This document shows, piece after piece, positions 17,235 to 21,818 of a stretch of 64,000 bases of DNA (the first letter of the stretch is position 1; every line of letters begins with the position of its first letter). The position numbers and the translations under genes were made by a program. This DNA comes from Parolsenella massiliensis. GTDB taxonomy: Bacteria; Actinomycetota; Coriobacteriia; Coriobacteriales; Atopobiaceae. The DNA lies in NCBI RefSeq assembly GCF_900143685.1, contig NZ_LT671675.1:99111-163110 (forward strand). Reading direction: 5' to 3'. Under the pieces are notes generated by a model. It had not been told where the DNA came from. It was given only the letters and a program-made list of their open reading frames with translations, and did no database searches.

Positions 17235-17265
17235 GCGTGAACAGGGGTACGTCCCCTGTTCACGC
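17235..17265. repeat. Type A palindrome
   Basis: A perfect palindrome GCGTGAACAGGGG-TACGT-CCCCTGTTCACGC lies between the convergent esterase and SirTM genes; the SirTM stop is inside its right arm. Confidence 0.9.
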
Positions 17266-18129
17266 GAGCGCGTCGAGTACGACGTCGGCGCCGGCGTCGA
17301 TGAGGATGGCCTGGCGGTCGATCTCGACGGGCGCCACGGCCTCGCCGAGGTTTATGCAGGCGTAGGTGGCCTGCGGGTTCCCCGCGCACATCTGCCAGAA
17401 GGGATACTTGATGATGCCGGGCGTGTTGCCGCCCACGCCGAGCTCGAGAAGCAGCGTGCGTATGCCCTTGTGACGACGGAGGAAGTCGTTGTACCGAGAC
17501 GCGGCGCGGTGCCAGCCCTCGTCCTCGACGAACGTGTCGTCGCAGCGCAGGTTCATCGTCATGGGAGCGCCGCAGTTGGGACAGTGTGGCACGAGCTCGC
17601 TGGGGATGCGCAGGTCTTCCTGCTGCTCAAACATCGCACGGATTGCCTGTTCGTTGTCCCAGGTCTGCCGACAGCACGGGCGGCTGCACTGGAAGAGGCC
17701 GTAGTCTCCCTGCGTGTAGAAGAGCCGCTGCTTGTCGAACCCCGCCCTCTGGAAGCAGTGGTCCACGTTGGTGGTGATCACGAAGTAGTCGCGGCCGCGC
17801 ACCAGTGCGAGGAGCCGCTCGTAGACGGGCTTGGGCGTCGGCTCGTAGCGGTTGCACATGACGTAGCGGCTCCAGAAGGCCCAGTACTCCTCGAGCGAGT
17901 CATAGGGGTAGAAGCCGCCCGCGTACATGTCCGAGAAGCCGTAACGTGCGGCGAAGTCGCCAAAGAGACGCTCGAACCGCTCGTCGGAGTACGTGTAGCC
18001 CGCGGCGGTGGAGAGGCCCGACCCCGCTCCCACGATGATGGCGTCGGCCTCATCGAGCGCGGCTTGCAGCCTATCGATTTGTGCCGAGAAGCTCCTGGTA
18101 GATTGCCTCGTCAGACGCGAGAAATACAT
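17260..18129 (-). CDS. SirTM-class sirtuin (protein ADP-ribosyltransferase)
   Basis: A 289-residue class M sirtuin. The ATG has AAGGTGG seven bases upstream and lies 59 nt inside the end of the macrodomain gene, so translation is coupled. The NAD motif is GAGSGLSTAAG (34-44); SirTM-specific features include the long insert YGFSDMYAGGFYPYDS and EEYWAFWSRY. The catalytic group is N121, D123 and Q140 in TTNVDH and TQGDYGLFQC. Zinc ligands are Cys148, Cys152/153, Cys183 and Cys186. Known SirTMs ADP-ribosylate a lipoylated GcvH-like carrier, a mark the linked macrodomain removes. No GcvH-L or lipoate ligase is in this window. Confidence 0.9.
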   Translation of the reverse strand: MYFSRLTRQSTRSFSAQIDRLQAALDEADAIIVGAGSGLSTAAGYTYSDERFERLFGDFAARYGFSDMYAGGFYPYDSLEEYWAFWSRYVMCNRYEPTPKPVYERLLALVRGRDYFVITTNVDHCFQRAGFDKQRLFYTQGDYGLFQCSRPCCRQTWDNEQAIRAMFEQQEDLRIPSELVPHCPNCGAPMTMNLRCDDTFVEDEGWHRAASRYNDFLRRHKGIRTLLLELGVGGNTPGIIKYPFWQMCAGNPQATYACINLGEAVAPVEIDRQAILIDAGADVVLDALA

Positions 18130-18856
18130 CGAACACCACCTTGAGGTCGTGGTCGTTGTGGGAGAGATGGCGCCGCACGGCATCGATGGCGACGCGGGCA
18201 GCGTCTTGCTGCGGGTAGCCAAAGACGCCCGTGGAGATGCAGCAGAAGGCCAGCGTGGAGAGCCCGGCGCGCGTTGCCTCGGCCAGACAGCTCTCATAGC
18301 AGCTGCGTAGCAGGAGCTCCTCGCGCGGTCCCGGCCGGTGACTGGGCACGACGGGACCCACGGTGTGGAAGACAAAGCGGCTGGGGAGGTTGAAGGCCGG
18401 CGTCACCTTGACTTGGCCGGTGGGCTCCTCGTGGCCCTGCTCGTCCATGAGCTCAGCGCAGGCGAGGCGCAGCTGCATGCCGGCGTAGGTGTGGATGGCG
18501 TTGTCGATGCAGCTGTGACCGGGAACGAAGCAGCCCAGCATCTGCGAGTTTGCCGCGTTGACGATGGCGTCTGCCGCGAGCAGCGTGATGTCGCCGCGCC
18601 AGATGGCGATGCGGTCGTGGAAGGCGAGCCTCTCGGCGTCCGTGGCGTCCCCGCGCTCCGCAAGGCGTTGCTCGAGGTAGGCGTCCTGGACATGCAGCAC
18701 GTCGGGTGGGACTGGCTCGGGCGGTCTCACGTTCATGAGCGCGCGCAGGAGGGCGCGCTGGCCCTCGGCGTCCGTGGGAATCTCGATGCTGCGGCCGTCT
18801 GGCCTCTCTGCGAGAAGCGCCCGGATGAGGAACTCCCCGCGCTCTGACTGGTTCAT
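18071..18856 (-). CDS. Zinc-type macrodomain ADP-ribosyl hydrolase
   Basis: The 261-residue protein starts at an ATG after AAAGGAGTCAC. Residues 1-75 are a helical N-terminal region as in SirTM-linked macrodomains; the macrodomain follows (IWRGDITLLAADAIVNAANSQMLG, residues about 85-108). C109, H114 and C116 in GCFVPGHSCIDNAIH are the expected zinc-site residues, and the phosphate loop is STGVFGYP. The family hydrolyses protein-linked ADP-ribose. It is the first gene of the two-gene macro-SirTM operon. Confidence 0.92.
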   Translation of the reverse strand: MNQSERGEFLIRALLAERPDGRSIEIPTDAEGQRALLRALMNVRPPEPVPPDVLHVQDAYLEQRLAERGDATDAERLAFHDRIAIWRGDITLLAADAIVNAANSQMLGCFVPGHSCIDNAIHTYAGMQLRLACAELMDEQGHEEPTGQVKVTPAFNLPSRFVFHTVGPVVPSHRPGPREELLLRSCYESCLAEATRAGLSTLAFCCISTGVFGYPQQDAARVAIDAVRRHLSHNDHDLKVVFDVFLASDEAIYQELLGTNR

Positions 18857-19202
18857 GTGACTCCTTTTCCTGGCTGTGTCCGCGGAAAAGTCTGTCACGG
18901 GGGCGCAGCCTCGCGAAAGAGGGCACCTTAAGGTAAGCGCCCGTCGGCTGCGTTAGGACCGGGGACGCTCTGAGACGTGGTGAGTGCGAAATTCCGAGGC
19001 TAAAACGTTTTGCGCCGAGTAGAGCCAATAACGCCCCTGCGATCACCAGCGGTTTTGCCTAACGCCTGCCGAGCTCTACTCGCCTGTGGCAGAAATAGCC
19101 TCGGAATTTCGTGCATAAGGCCGTCCGGTGGGCGCGTGCGGGCCGTGCAGTGGGCGCGCTTGGGCCGCGCGGCGGGTGTGTGCGGGCCGCATGGCGGCTC
19201 CG
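18857..19202. other. Gene-free region containing hairpin element D
   Basis: No coding frame is supportable. The centre is occupied by a nested inverted repeat (18987-19111), and the flanks are GC-rich without motifs I recognise. Confidence 0.7.
18987..19111. repeat. Nested inverted repeat (hairpin element D)
   Basis: Outer arms CGAAATTCCGAGGCTA (18987-19002) and its exact complement (19096-19111) enclose inner arms CGAGTAGAGC (19016-19025) and GCTCTACTCG (19073-19082). The transcript of either strand would fold into a two-tier hairpin. It lies between the hxlR-type gene stop and the macrodomain start. Confidence 0.7.
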
Positions 19203-19535
19203 CTATCCCTCGCGAACGAGCTGCTGGTAGTCGGTGCCCCACTCGACCATCGAGTTGATGACGGGCATGAGGCTCTCGCCTACCTCGGAGAGCGCGTGCT
19301 CCGTGCGGATGGGCGTCTCGGGAATCACCGTGCGTGTGATGAGGCCGGCCGCCTCCATCTCCTTGAGGTTGGACGAGAGAACCTTCTGGCTGATGCCTGC
19401 GATGGCACGCTGCAGTTCGTTGAAGCCAAACGGTCGCTCCTTGAGCTGCTGGATGATGTAGATCTTCCACTTGTTGCCAAACAGCTGGAAGCACGTGGCA
19501 ACGGGACAGGGGGGAAGCTCTTCCTTGGTCAGCAT
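19203..19535 (-). CDS. HxlR-family transcriptional regulator
   Basis: A 110-residue winged-helix protein; the ATG follows GAGAGGAGTCGGC. The family features are CPVATCFQLFGNKWKIYIIQQL, then RPFGFNELQRAIAGISQKVLSSNLKEMEAAGLI and the wing. The N-terminal Cys pair (CPVATC) matches the redox or electrophile-sensing Cys of HxlR/HypR-type regulators. It is transcribed divergently from the radical-SAM peptide cluster, 182 bp away, and is the probable regulator of that cluster; this is inference from position. Confidence 0.92.
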   Translation of the reverse strand: MLTKEELPPCPVATCFQLFGNKWKIYIIQQLKERPFGFNELQRAIAGISQKVLSSNLKEMEAAGLITRTVIPETPIRTEHALSEVGESLMPVINSMVEWGTDYQQLVREG

Positions 19536-19609
19536 GCCGACTCCTCTCGGTGAGACGGGGGATTAGCCTTTGCCTCCATTATCTATTGCGGTTTCCGCCG
19601 CGCACCTAC

Positions 19610-19631
19610 TTACCTTTTTGTAACCGGGTAA
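19610..19631. promoter_or_regulatory. Possible operator TTACC-N12-GGTAA
   Basis: A short inverted repeat (TTACC at 19610-19614, GGTAA at 19627-19631) lies in the AT-richer centre of the intergenic region between the HxlR gene and the peptide cluster. A regulator site is inferred, with low certainty. Confidence 0.3.
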
Positions 19632-19717
19632 TAGATTGGTGCCTTCTTTTGGGCGATGCGCAATTCTCGGATGATTCTTCCTGGACGCAGAAGCGTTCGT
19701 TAATGAGAGGAGAAATC

Positions 19718-19918
19718 ATGTCCGAGAATCTCGAGAAGGTTGCTGCCTTCGCCGCCTGCGGCACCACCGACCCCGCCCCTGCCTGCGGCTCCGCCGACCC
19801 GGCTGCCGCGCCCGCGTGTGGCTCCGCCGATCCCAAGGCCGCCCCGGCCTGCGGCAGCGCCGACCCCAAGGCTGCTCCCTCCTGCGGTACCGCCTGCGGC
19901 ACGGCTGACGCCAAGTAG
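19718..19918 (+). CDS. ACGX-repeat RiPP precursor with CX3D motifs
   Basis: A 66-residue peptide starting at an ATG with GAGAGGAG upstream. Residues 1-12 are a short leader (MSENLEKVAAFA); the core is a Cys/Gly/Ala/Pro repeat of ACGSADPxAAP type. The six Cys are at 14, 23, 34, 45, 56 and 60. Five form CX3D (C14-D18, C23-D27, C34-D38, C45-D49, C60-D64) and one is CX3C (C56-C60). The following genes encode a flavin/ferredoxin fusion and a radical SAM/SPASM enzyme, the classical precursor-maturase layout of the 'ACGX system'. By analogy with freyrasin-type ranthipeptides, Cys-to-Asp thioether bridges are the likely modification. The biological role is unknown; no transporter or protease gene is adjacent. 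Confidence 0.88.
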   Translation: MSENLEKVAAFAACGTTDPAPACGSADPAAAPACGSADPKAAPACGSADPKAAPSCGTACGTADAK

Positions 19919-19944
19919 TCGAAATCGCAAGAAAGGGGCTCGTA

Positions 19945-20559
19945 ATGGACGCACAGACCTGTTTGCAGAAGATGAGGCTTGCCGACACGCTCTCGCTCGC
20001 CACCGTGGACGAGGCGGGCGCGCCGCAGATTCGCTGCGTGAGCGCCGTTCATTACGAGCCCGACGCGGTCTATTTCCTGACCGCGCGCGGCAAGGAGATG
20101 GCCCGTCAGCTCGATCGTGACGGCCGCATTCAGACGCTCGTCCACACGCGCTTCAACGAGATGATTCGCATGAGTGGCGTGGCCAAGGCCGCACCGGCGG
20201 ATGAGCAGGCACGCTGGATCGACGCCATCTATGCCGAGCAGCCCTATCTTGCCAACGTCTATCCGGGCGACACGCGCAAGATCAACGTGATCTACAAGGT
20301 CGAGAACATCGTGATCGACTACTTCAACCTGGGCATCCGCCCCATCGAGCGCGCGGTCTTCTCGCTTGACGGCGCGCCGGCGCCCGCCAAGGGCTATCGC
20401 ATCGATGCCGAGAGGTGCATCGGCTGCGGCACCTGCGCGGCAAGCTGTCCGCAGGGCTGCATCGTCGAGGGCGACACGTATCGCATCGAACCCGAGCACT
20501 GCCTGCACTGCGGCGCCTGCGCCGAGGCGTGCCCGGCCGGCGCCGTCGAGCGACTCTAG
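19945..20559 (+). CDS. FMN-binding split barrel fused to 2[4Fe-4S] ferredoxin
   Basis: A 204-residue fusion; the ATG follows GAAAGGGGCTCGTA. Residues 1-125 are a pyridoxamine 5'-phosphate oxidase-like FMN-binding barrel (SLATVDEAGAPQIRCVSAVHY). Residues about 150-200 hold two 4Fe-4S motifs with Cys158/161/164/168 and Cys186/189/192/196, each ending CP. Placed between the peptide and the radical SAM gene, it probably supplies electrons to reduce the maturase clusters or reduces the product. It starts 26 nt after the precursor stop, in the same operon. Confidence 0.9.
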   Translation: MDAQTCLQKMRLADTLSLATVDEAGAPQIRCVSAVHYEPDAVYFLTARGKEMARQLDRDGRIQTLVHTRFNEMIRMSGVAKAAPADEQARWIDAIYAEQPYLANVYPGDTRKINVIYKVENIVIDYFNLGIRPIERAVFSLDGAPAPAKGYRIDAERCIGCGTCAASCPQGCIVEGDTYRIEPEHCLHCGACAEACPAGAVERL

Positions 20560-20580
20560 AAACAAGGGAGCAAGTCAACG

Positions 20581-21639
20581 ATGAGCAATACGCCGCAGGT
20601 CAAGCCTGCGTTTGCCTTCCAGTGGCACATCACCGACGAGTGCGATCAGCGCTGCAAGCACTGCTATATCTTTGCCAACGGGGACTGCCCGGGATTCAAC
20701 CGCATGTTGTGGGAGCAGATGACCAAGGTCGTGGACCAGGCCCAGCAGCTGTGCGACCGCCTCGGTCGCCAGCCCTACTTCTACGTCACGGGTGGTGACC
20801 CGATCCTGCACCCGGACTTCTGGCGCCTCGCCGAGCTGCTGCACGAGCGCGGACTCATGTGGTGCGTCATGGGCAACCCCTTCCACCTCACCGACGAGGT
20901 CTGCGCGCGCATGAAGGCGCTCGGCTGCCGCAAGTATCAGCTCTCGCTCGACGGCCTCGAGGCCACGCACGACTACTTCCGCAAGCCCGGCTCCTTCGCC
21001 GAGACGATGCGCGCCATCGGCTGCCTCAAGCGCGCGGGCATCTGGGTGGCCATCATGAACACTGTCTCCAGCCGGAACGCGCACGAGCTGCCGCAGCTCA
21101 TCGACCTCGTGGCGAGCCTCGACGTGGACGTGTTCGCCTTCGGCCGCTACTGCCCCACCTCTGGCCAGAAGCGCGACGAGTTCCATATGGAGCCGCTCGA
21201 GTACCGCGAGGTGCTTCTCGCGGCCCAGGAGCGCATGGACTACCACCAGGCAAACGGCTGCAAGACCTACTTCCAGCTCAAGGACCATCTCTGGACGCTG
21301 CTGCGCTGGGAGCAGGGACGCTTCAAGATTCCCGAGAACGCCAAGCCCGGCGTCATCTATGACGGCTGCCACTGCGGCCACGGCCACATGACCGTGCTGC
21401 CCACCGGCGACGTCTGCGCCTGCCGCCGCATGGAGAGCAAGGTCGGCAACATCGCCGACAACACGCTTGAGCAGCTGTTCTTCTCGCCTGAGATGGAGGA
21501 GAGGCGTGACTTCTCCAAGTTCAAGAAGTGTGCCAAGTGCGAGCTGTTCGGCTGGTGCCGCGGCTGCCCCGCGGTGACCTCCGGCTACACCGGCGACATG
21601 TACGACGCCGACCCCCAGTGCTGGAAGGTCGTGGAGTAG
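20581..21639 (+). CDS. Radical SAM/SPASM peptide maturase, ACGX system
   Basis: The 352-residue enzyme starts at an ATG 21 nt after the ferredoxin-fusion stop, with AAGGGAGC upstream. The SAM cluster motif CX3CX2C is Cys21/25/28 in CDQRCKHCY, and a GGDP motif (71-74) replaces GGEP. The C-terminal SPASM region has Cys263, 265, 279, 281, 317, 320, 326, 329 and 347, enough for two auxiliary 4Fe-4S clusters. Such enzymes make thioether or other crosslinks on ribosomal peptides. The substrate is almost certainly the peptide at 19718. An early AFQWHITDEC stretch is typical of the group. Confidence 0.93.
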   Translation: MSNTPQVKPAFAFQWHITDECDQRCKHCYIFANGDCPGFNRMLWEQMTKVVDQAQQLCDRLGRQPYFYVTGGDPILHPDFWRLAELLHERGLMWCVMGNPFHLTDEVCARMKALGCRKYQLSLDGLEATHDYFRKPGSFAETMRAIGCLKRAGIWVAIMNTVSSRNAHELPQLIDLVASLDVDVFAFGRYCPTSGQKRDEFHMEPLEYREVLLAAQERMDYHQANGCKTYFQLKDHLWTLLRWEQGRFKIPENAKPGVIYDGCHCGHGHMTVLPTGDVCACRRMESKVGNIADNTLEQLFFSPEMEERRDFSKFKKCAKCELFGWCRGCPAVTSGYTGDMYDADPQCWKVVE

Positions 21640-21646
21640 CGCGCAC

Positions 21647-21677
21647 TCGTGAACAGGGGACGTAGCCCCGTTCACGC
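21647..21677. repeat. Type A palindrome
   Basis: CGTGAACAGGGGACGTAGCCCCGTTCACG has one imperfect arm. It lies directly after the radical SAM gene and may terminate the RiPP operon. Confidence 0.85.
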
Positions 21678-21703: not shown

Positions 21704-21793
21704 ATGGACGCTCTTGAGCTCGTCAAGACGAGGCGATCGATCCGCAGGTATGCGGCCGAGCAGGTCTCGCGCGAGGACGTCGTGAACGCATGA
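21704..21793 (+). pseudogene. Nitroreductase N-terminal stub
   Basis: A GGAGGGATGCGTC ribosome binding site and an ATG start a frame of 29 codons: MDALELVKTRRSIRRY followed by AAEQVSREDVV. This is the conserved N-terminus of nitroreductase-family flavoproteins (normally about 170-200 residues). The frame ends at a TGA supplied by a type A palindrome that starts at the breakpoint, and nothing of the remaining domain is downstream. Deletion or insertion associated with the palindrome destroyed the gene; the original enzyme may have belonged to the redox neighbourhood of the RiPP cluster. Confidence 0.75.
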
Positions 21794-21818
21794 ACAGGGG
21801 ACGTACCCCTGTTCACGT
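21782..21818. repeat. Type A palindrome at a gene breakpoint
   Basis: TGAACAGGGGACGT and ACCCCTGTTCACG arms, preceded by a partial GTGAACGCA duplication. It marks the end of the nitroreductase stub and precedes trmO. Confidence 0.85.

Follow-up and report, generated by a model that had tools for sequence, protein, structure and literature searches.

A cysteine-repeat peptide and its radical SAM maturase beside a SirTM/zinc-macrodomain pair in Parolsenella massiliensis: a candidate redox carrier for reversible ADP-ribosylation

In Parolsenella massiliensis, the genes for an ACGX-type repeat peptide and a radical SAM/SPASM peptide maturase lie next to an overlapping gene pair for a SirTM-type sirtuin and a zinc-macrodomain protein (Zn-macro). 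Both systems are located in a stretch of 64,000 nucleotides (contig NZ_LT671675.1, positions 99,111 to 163,110) that is called the window here. From their conserved association in relatives, the ACGX system and SirTM/Zn-macro are probably functionally coupled. More tentatively, at somewhat less than even chances, the modified peptide may be a cytosolic thiol or redox carrier that is switched by the pair in the manner of lipoyl-GcvH-L. The earlier note on this DNA had listed the peptide, a protein with an FMN (flavin mononucleotide) barrel and two 4Fe-4S motifs, the radical SAM/SPASM enzyme, and a divergent HxlR gene, all of which are present as stated. Its main omission was the adjoining SirTM/Zn-macro pair; a truncated nitroreductase gene and an operator-like palindrome were also passed over. 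The principal features, in window coordinates, are the following:

17260..18129, minus strand: SirTM-type (class M) sirtuin, 289 amino acids (aa), start codon inferred; matches PDB 5a3a (E = 7.9e-70), with QG for HG
18071..18898, minus strand: zinc-macrodomain protein, predicted protein-ADP-ribose hydrolase; NF003163, 331.3 bits (cut-off, 272)
19203..19535, minus strand: HxlR-type regulator, divergent from the peptide; PF01638, 89.7 bits
19610..19623, no strand: putative operator TTAC-N6-GTAA, a palindrome between HxlR and the peptide, proposed from its recurrence in relatives
19718..19918, plus strand: ACGX-type repeat peptide, 66 aa, six Cys (five CX3D, one CX3C); assigned by position and motif
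19945..20559, plus strand: FMN-binding split barrel (PNPOx_N) with two 4Fe-4S motifs (Fer4), termed PNPOx-Fer, possible electron donor; PF01243, PF00037
20581..21639, plus strand: radical SAM/SPASM peptide maturase rSAM_ACGX, 352 aa; TIGR04340

Statistical linkage of the two systems was found in two bacterial classes. For Clostridia, 321 genomes were sampled evenly across the class around a Hungatella metagenome-assembled genome; this center genome, picked because it has both ACGX and SirTM, was dropped from the test. TIGR04340 scored over its cut-off in 14 of the 321 genomes, and SirTM was encoded in all 14 (within 5 kb in 12). Without the center genome, SirTM was present in 13/13 ACGX genomes (11 within 5 kb) versus 42/307 others (P = 3e-11 in a Fisher test that, like the following one, treats genomes as independent and ignores kinship). 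Among 296 genomes of Coriobacteriia, the class of the window, 11 carried ACGX, 89 SirTM, and nine both (five within 5 kb); with the window's own genome dropped, SirTM occurred in 8/10 ACGX genomes versus 80/285 others (P = 0.0013). Gene neighborhoods were compared in 91 ACGX loci, comprising 10 loci from Coriobacteriia (excluding the window's own locus and a duplicate of one named locus), 80 named relatives, and the window itself. The named relatives are the best 80 of at least 575 loci, ranked by similarity to a 12-row alignment composed entirely of Coriobacteriia sequences. Neighbors were counted between −3.5 and +5.2 kb in the 50 named loci whose downstream sequence reaches 5.2 kb or more (referred to as flanked loci), of which 33 contained SirTM and 20 both SirTM and a macrodomain. 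The linkage was not clonal. In trees of a quick kind, grouping of all ACGX-linked SirTMs into a single clade was rejected by the approximately unbiased (AU) test (p-AU = 4.5e-9; 47 versus 30 rows, with omission, on the comparison side, of five SirTM rows that stem from ACGX-relic operons or from genomes with ACGX), indicating more than one event of gain, loss, or exchange of the linkage. Starred branches of the SirTM tree force at least 5 changes between ACGX-linked and unlinked labels, and the presence of SirTM changed 13 times over 60 loci on the enzyme tree, a count made without a shuffled control.

Several observations weigh against the peptide as the partner of the pair. SirTM was not nearby in 17/50 flanked ACGX loci, and the macrodomain was not nearby in 13 of the 33 that had SirTM. 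Only 4/10 ACGX genomes of Coriobacteriia (own genome dropped) had SirTM within 5 kb; one ACGX genome (L067/G296) had no SirTM anywhere at an E value of 1e-40, and both Methanobrevibacter loci were without a nearby SirTM and macrodomain. In the window, the SirTM/macrodomain pair is on the opposite strand behind HxlR, i.e., outside the peptide operon, and its SirTM falls among SirTM-only rows in the tree. The SirTMs of the window, Collinsella, and Eggerthella may moreover be one clade (p-AU = 0.49), and independent recruitment in the window and Collinsella versus Eggerthella, which had been expected from the gene orders, was not shown. Finally, in 35 SirTM loci that lack an ACGX enzyme alongside (L127 to L161 plus L163, minus L146; the host genomes of L131, L137, and L163 carry ACGX elsewhere), the ACGX peptide occurred only as a relic in L130, so that SirTM necessarily acts on other targets in these settings. 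SirTM and ACGX as one inseparable unit are refuted by the SirTM-only and ACGX-only loci.

These loci also bear on a strong rival to direct modification, namely co-regulation without contact, in which ACGX and SirTM/Zn-macro both answer redox stress while SirTM modifies another protein. It is compatible with the 17/50 ACGX loci without nearby SirTM and with the SirTM-only loci, 20/35 of which had HxlR and 10/35 a full-length PNPOx-Fer homologue, and we give it an appreciable probability, well below even. As an observation in its own right, 13 of these 35 SirTM/Zn-macro loci encoded an NmrA-like NAD(P)-binding protein, which was found in 0/91 ACGX loci, and they include further SirTM operon types. 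What speaks against a merely shared stress response is, first, the regulatory region. Of the 60 named loci whose upstream sequence extends 2.3 kb or more, 49 had a divergent HxlR gene, and TTAC-N6-GTAA recurred in 25 of 62 HxlR-peptide regions, window included (0.46 expected from base shuffles). Allowing a spacer of 5 to 7 nucleotides, the palindrome occurred in 29/62 ACGX HxlR regions (1.5 expected) versus 3/20 in SirTM-only loci (0.4 expected), and two of these three have ACGX-type HxlR genes. By this measure, the ACGX and SirTM-only regulons look different. An N-terminal Cys can serve HxlR-type regulators as a sensor of disulfide and quinone stress, and a CPV motif was present in 59/71 ACGX-locus HxlR hits.

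Second, the known SirTM target family was mostly undetected. According to PMC4518038 and PMC11490716, SirTM of Staphylococcus aureus and Streptococcus pyogenes ADP-ribosylates lipoylated GcvH-L (the likely site in S. pyogenes being Asp27), Zn-macro removes the mark, and the flavin oxidoreductase OYE is bound by lipoyl-GcvH-L. PMC11490716 further presents GcvH-L as the sole known SirTM target in 2024, calls the targets of other pairs elusive, and describes that GcvH-L was not demodified by Zn-macros from outside its operon (those of the minimal operon and of fusions); Zn-macros removed Asp/Glu-linked ADP-ribose, and cleavage of the Cys-linked form was also reported. In 21 of 23 genomes with ACGX and SirTM, GCV_H was undetected, a count confined to such genomes, so that the lack need not be special to ACGX. 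The exceptions were G556, with a weak partial match, and G597, in which SirTM is unlinked to ACGX, and 10/14 control genomes matched. No GCV_H match was found in the window's own genome at an E value of 1e-5.

The protein encoded at 17260-18129 is assigned to the SirTM class, with predicted transferase activity, by its QG motif, the adjacent macrodomain gene, and homology to a solved SirTM. Its only PDB matches at an E value of 0.001 were 5a3a, which is named a SIR2 family protein there and is presumably the SirTM of S. pyogenes, and 8rsn (1.6e-22), whose chain matched the Zn-macro query as well as the SirTM query. In the motif YTQGDYG of the window SirTM, QG replaces the sirtuin HG, and the same was true for 46/46 ACGX-locus and 34/36 other SirTM hits with at least 75% profile coverage. 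The window protein stayed under the cut-off of the general Pfam SIR2 model (19.6 versus 24 bits), which would fit a diverged class; according to PMC4518038, the change from HG to QG marks class M sirtuins. Zn-macro, whose gene overlaps that of SirTM behind HxlR on the minus strand, was recognized by both its family score and the insert motif GCxxPxHxCxDN, and it matched PDB 8rsi (1.4e-68) and 5kiv (9e-64). This motif, which binds the zinc, was present in 29/30 ACGX-locus and 31/31 other Zn-macro hits.

The peptide gene is preceded by AGGAG, and ribosome-binding sites were identified by eye ahead of all three plus-strand genes. Cys1 to Cys4 and Cys6 of the peptide have Asp at +4, and Cys5 has Cys. 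The ACGX assignment made in the earlier note holds for the enzyme, which scored 522.4 bits over residues 10 to 351 against TIGR04340 (cut-off, 400) and belongs to the ACGX family with near certainty, but not for the peptide by model: against the ACGX-repeat model TIGR04341 it reached 13.3 bits (E = 0.098; cut-off, 28) and is thus ACGX-like by motif and position. Peptide statistics refer to 81 distinct peptides from 82 loci with 450 Cys, some N termini missing at contig ends, and omit L044 (a false hit) and L064. Asp or Glu was found at +4 of 260/450 Cys, compared to 48 on average and at most 64 in 1,000 shuffles with Cys fixed. Within the window, at least four CX3[DE] were present in this peptide only (six frames, stretches of at least 30 aa, 70-aa windows, step 10), and the repeats use alternative synonymous codons (Ser, TCC/AGC; Asp, GAC/GAT; Cys, TGC/TGT). 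Taken together, these features indicate that the Cys pattern is not due to chance. At least one CX3[DE] was present in 80/81 peptides, the exception being Methanobrevibacter L049 with CX2D, while the number of repeats ranged from 3 to 10 Cys per peptide. The conserved CX3[DE] pattern is therefore real in relatives, though not universal, and the check on homologues proposed by the earlier note revealed strong conservation rather than a random Cys pattern, with CX3C units (140/450 Cys), L049, and L064 as exceptions. A repeat peptide was located upstream of the enzyme in 81 of the 85 loci with at least 300 bases upstream (six loci fall below 300), including L064, whose minimal peptide of 27 aa is limited to one CX3C unit and lacks Asp at +4. 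None was found at L013, L015, L044, and L091; the L015 enzyme (G225:C49) is a second, diverged ACGX-like radical SAM enzyme of 373 bits, under the cut-off.

The enzyme has the radical SAM motif CX3CX2C (CDQRCKHC) and nine Cys from residue 263 on, of which seven were invariant in the 12-row alignment, C265 was nearly so, and C279 was not conserved. An AlphaFold2 model built with this alignment (pLDDT, 88.5) resembled most closely the folds of anSME, PqqE, SkfB, and SuiB. The radical SAM core begins near residue 10, which leaves no room for an N-terminal recognition domain, and the model is without an extra domain. In PMC9413430 (see also PMC10470005 for PapB), the PapB substrate motif is CX3D, and leader binding through a RiPP recognition element (RRE) domain is discussed (RiPP, ribosomally synthesized and posttranslationally modified peptide). 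Plain membership of the enzyme in the PapB family was ruled out, since its 51.5 bits against NF047865 are far under the cut-off of 340. The nearest other NCBIfam model was SbtM (TIGR04082; 178.8 bits; cut-off, 350).

The balance is slightly in favor of a Cys-Asp thioether as the chemistry installed by this maturase: it is CX3D that PapB uses, all but one of the peptides have at least one CX3[DE], and D/E occupies +4 of the final Cys in 77/81. A competing assignment, to which we give a smaller but substantial probability, is that the maturase works on Cys-Gly, by anSME-like oxidation or by ring formation as named for SbtM, with the Asp at +4 serving recognition. Gly follows at +1 in 442/450 Cys and Ala precedes in 405/450, so that C-G is more constant than CX3D, which bears on the chemistry; SbtM as the nearest other model and anSME among the nearest folds point the same way, as do the CX2D of L049 and the lack of Asp at +4 in L064. 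This alternative concerns chemistry only and can be combined with a carrier role or with any of the other explanations.

Besides the maturase, the locus encodes redox proteins. Among the flanked named loci, nitroreductase was found in 35/50 and PNPOx-Fer in 34/50, and the module seen in relatives reads HxlR / peptide / rSAM / nitroreductase / PNPOx-Fer / Zn-macro / SirTM. In the window, the nitroreductase gene is broken:

21704..21793, plus strand: truncated nitroreductase, first 29 codons only; full-length after the enzyme in many relatives

Most ACGX-adjacent PNPOx-Fer homologues formed one clade (support of 89, not starred) apart from those of SirTM-only operons; three ACGX rows were outside it and one ACGX-relic locus inside. 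Label changes on the trees numbered 2 for PNPOx-Fer and 4 for HxlR (the HxlR tree having few columns), i.e., both belong mostly to ACGX lineages of their own. In contrast to the SirTM/macrodomain pair with its repeated gains, losses, or exchanges, peptide, enzyme, HxlR, and PNPOx-Fer thus look like the core of the system, and these four are also found together in Methanobrevibacter. Methanobrevibacter L049 itself has CGSD repeats, two HxlR genes, and PNPOx-Fer, and L084 from the same genus, with only 98 bases upstream, has the same neighbors. The electron-delivery protein dedicated to the maturase that the earlier note proposed is partly borne out by the clade, but PNPOx-Fer was missing from 16/50 flanked ACGX loci, and full-length distant relatives occur in 10/35 SirTM loci without an adjacent ACGX enzyme, which weakens a role exclusive to the maturase. 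Zinc-type dehydrogenases of one family, a member of which matched PF08240, were encoded in 30/91 loci, including 14 of the 50 flanked ones. Eleven ACGX loci, L036 and L042 among them, encoded within the operon a DUF1848 family protein with a CX3CX2C motif, ∼2.3 kb downstream of the enzyme start; the one from L042 matched PF08902.

The lack of a nearby exporter or leader peptidase, as recorded in the earlier note, was confirmed for recurring neighbors: no exporter, protease, or immunity family recurred at a fixed place, as judged from cluster representatives without a dedicated profile search. An ABC ATPase family in 7 loci had scattered offsets on both strands. We therefore rejected a secreted antimicrobial. 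More broadly, it is improbable that the product is a conventional thioether RiPP released from the cell, be it a ranthipeptide, an antimicrobial, or a signal, that depends on genes elsewhere for export and cleavage and has SirTM as an incidental neighbor. Freely varying repeat number and a radical SAM/SPASM maturase would fit such a product, and repeat number varies freely in other repeat RiPPs also. In addition to the missing families, however, the part N-terminal to the repeats spans only ∼10 to 20 residues by eye, and the conserved neighbors are those of redox chemistry and ADP-ribosylation. Anti-phage defense was likewise dismissed: with PADLOC defense models, four of five proteins had no match at an E value of 1e-5, and the radical SAM core matched two viperin models weakly (best, 48 bits).

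We propose that the whole locus is an HxlR-controlled redox-response module. In this scheme, the TIGR04340 enzyme, with electrons supplied at least partly by the flavin/ferredoxin protein, would modify the Cys units of the peptide, most likely by Cys-to-Asp thioethers in CX3D, and some CX3C thiols would stay free. The modified peptide would remain in the cytosol as a thiol/redox carrier for oxidoreductases, such as the nitroreductase or zinc-type dehydrogenase of relatives. SirTM would ADP-ribosylate the modified peptide at Asp or Cys, both of which it offers as possible acceptors, and thereby hold the carrier off until Zn-macro strips the ADP-ribose under stress, as has been proposed for lipoyl-GcvH-L in staphylococci and streptococci. 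That the peptide itself is ADP-ribosylated is suggested by its place and by the analogous parts, and we regard this step as possible at a little under even chances.

The island is bracketed by repeats. Eight copies of a 25-bp palindrome occur in the window at up to 3 mismatches (0 expected), and 5 of 10 genome hits of its exact core are within ∼10 kb around the island:

17237-17261: palindrome copy, overlapping the SirTM stop codon by two bases
21651-21675 and 21792-21816: palindrome copies flanking the truncated nitroreductase
15096, 23831, 26994, 27572, and 54384: positions of the other palindrome copies

A decayed second ACGX copy was observed 3 kb before the window (L016, 3711-4333; G000:C1, ∼95.7 to 96.3 kb). 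It consists of a C-terminal ACGX enzyme piece (38 residues aligned at 71% identity) and, behind it in a different frame, a nitroreductase without its N terminus. Just upstream of this relic (L016, 1383-3358) are genes for a membrane-type 4Fe-4S protein (Fer4_5) and an AhpC/TSA-type thioredoxin-like lipoprotein.

Two questions meet at this locus, the role of the ACGX peptide and the targets of SirTM/Zn-macro outside GcvH-L operons, called elusive in PMC11490716, and the linkage yields a testable candidate for what the pair acts on. If the proposal is true, SirTM would gain a second target, and a reversible modification inside the cell would regulate a RiPP-like peptide; this would join the peptide type to ADP-ribosylation signaling in gut bacteria and explain why neither exporter nor peptidase is nearby. 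Among the papers listed by our literature searches, whose coverage left out most subscription papers, there was no relevant one on ACGX or TIGR04340 and none joining SirTM or a macrodomain with radical SAM; the word "radical" occurs 0 times in PMC4518038 and PMC11490716. Nor did the listed results include an ACGX system with HxlR, PNPOx-Fer, nitroreductase, and SirTM/Zn-macro neighbors.

Compared to known systems, the locus is like the NCBIfam TIGR04340/TIGR04341 ACGX system in that the enzyme exceeds its cut-off and an ACG-repeat peptide is encoded just upstream, but unlike it in that the peptide remains under the TIGR04341 cut-off. With the PapA/PapB (freyrasin) ranthipeptide system it shares CX3D repeats and a radical SAM/SPASM maturase, but the enzyme's PapB score (51.5 versus 340 bits) and lack of an extra domain set it apart from the RRE-dependent leader binding discussed for PapB. 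The selenobiotic maturase SbtM is the nearest sister model, although the 178.8 bits are under its cut-off of 350 and SbtM is longer (profile of 516 positions). The extended SirTM operon of S. aureus and S. pyogenes (GcvH-L, LplA2, Zn-macro, SirTM, OYE, LLM) is similar in that the pair lies beside a carrier candidate, a modifying enzyme, and oxidoreductases, with a link to redox; part for part, the peptide would correspond to GcvH-L and the radical SAM enzyme to LplA2. The carrier candidate here, in contrast, is a radical-SAM peptide instead of a lipoylated protein, in a genome without a detected GcvH. On a reading to which we give clearly less than even chances, the peptide could play the part of the lipoyl domain in ribosomally synthesized form: a redox carrier built by radical SAM chemistry and reversibly ADP-ribosylated by SirTM and Zn-macro.

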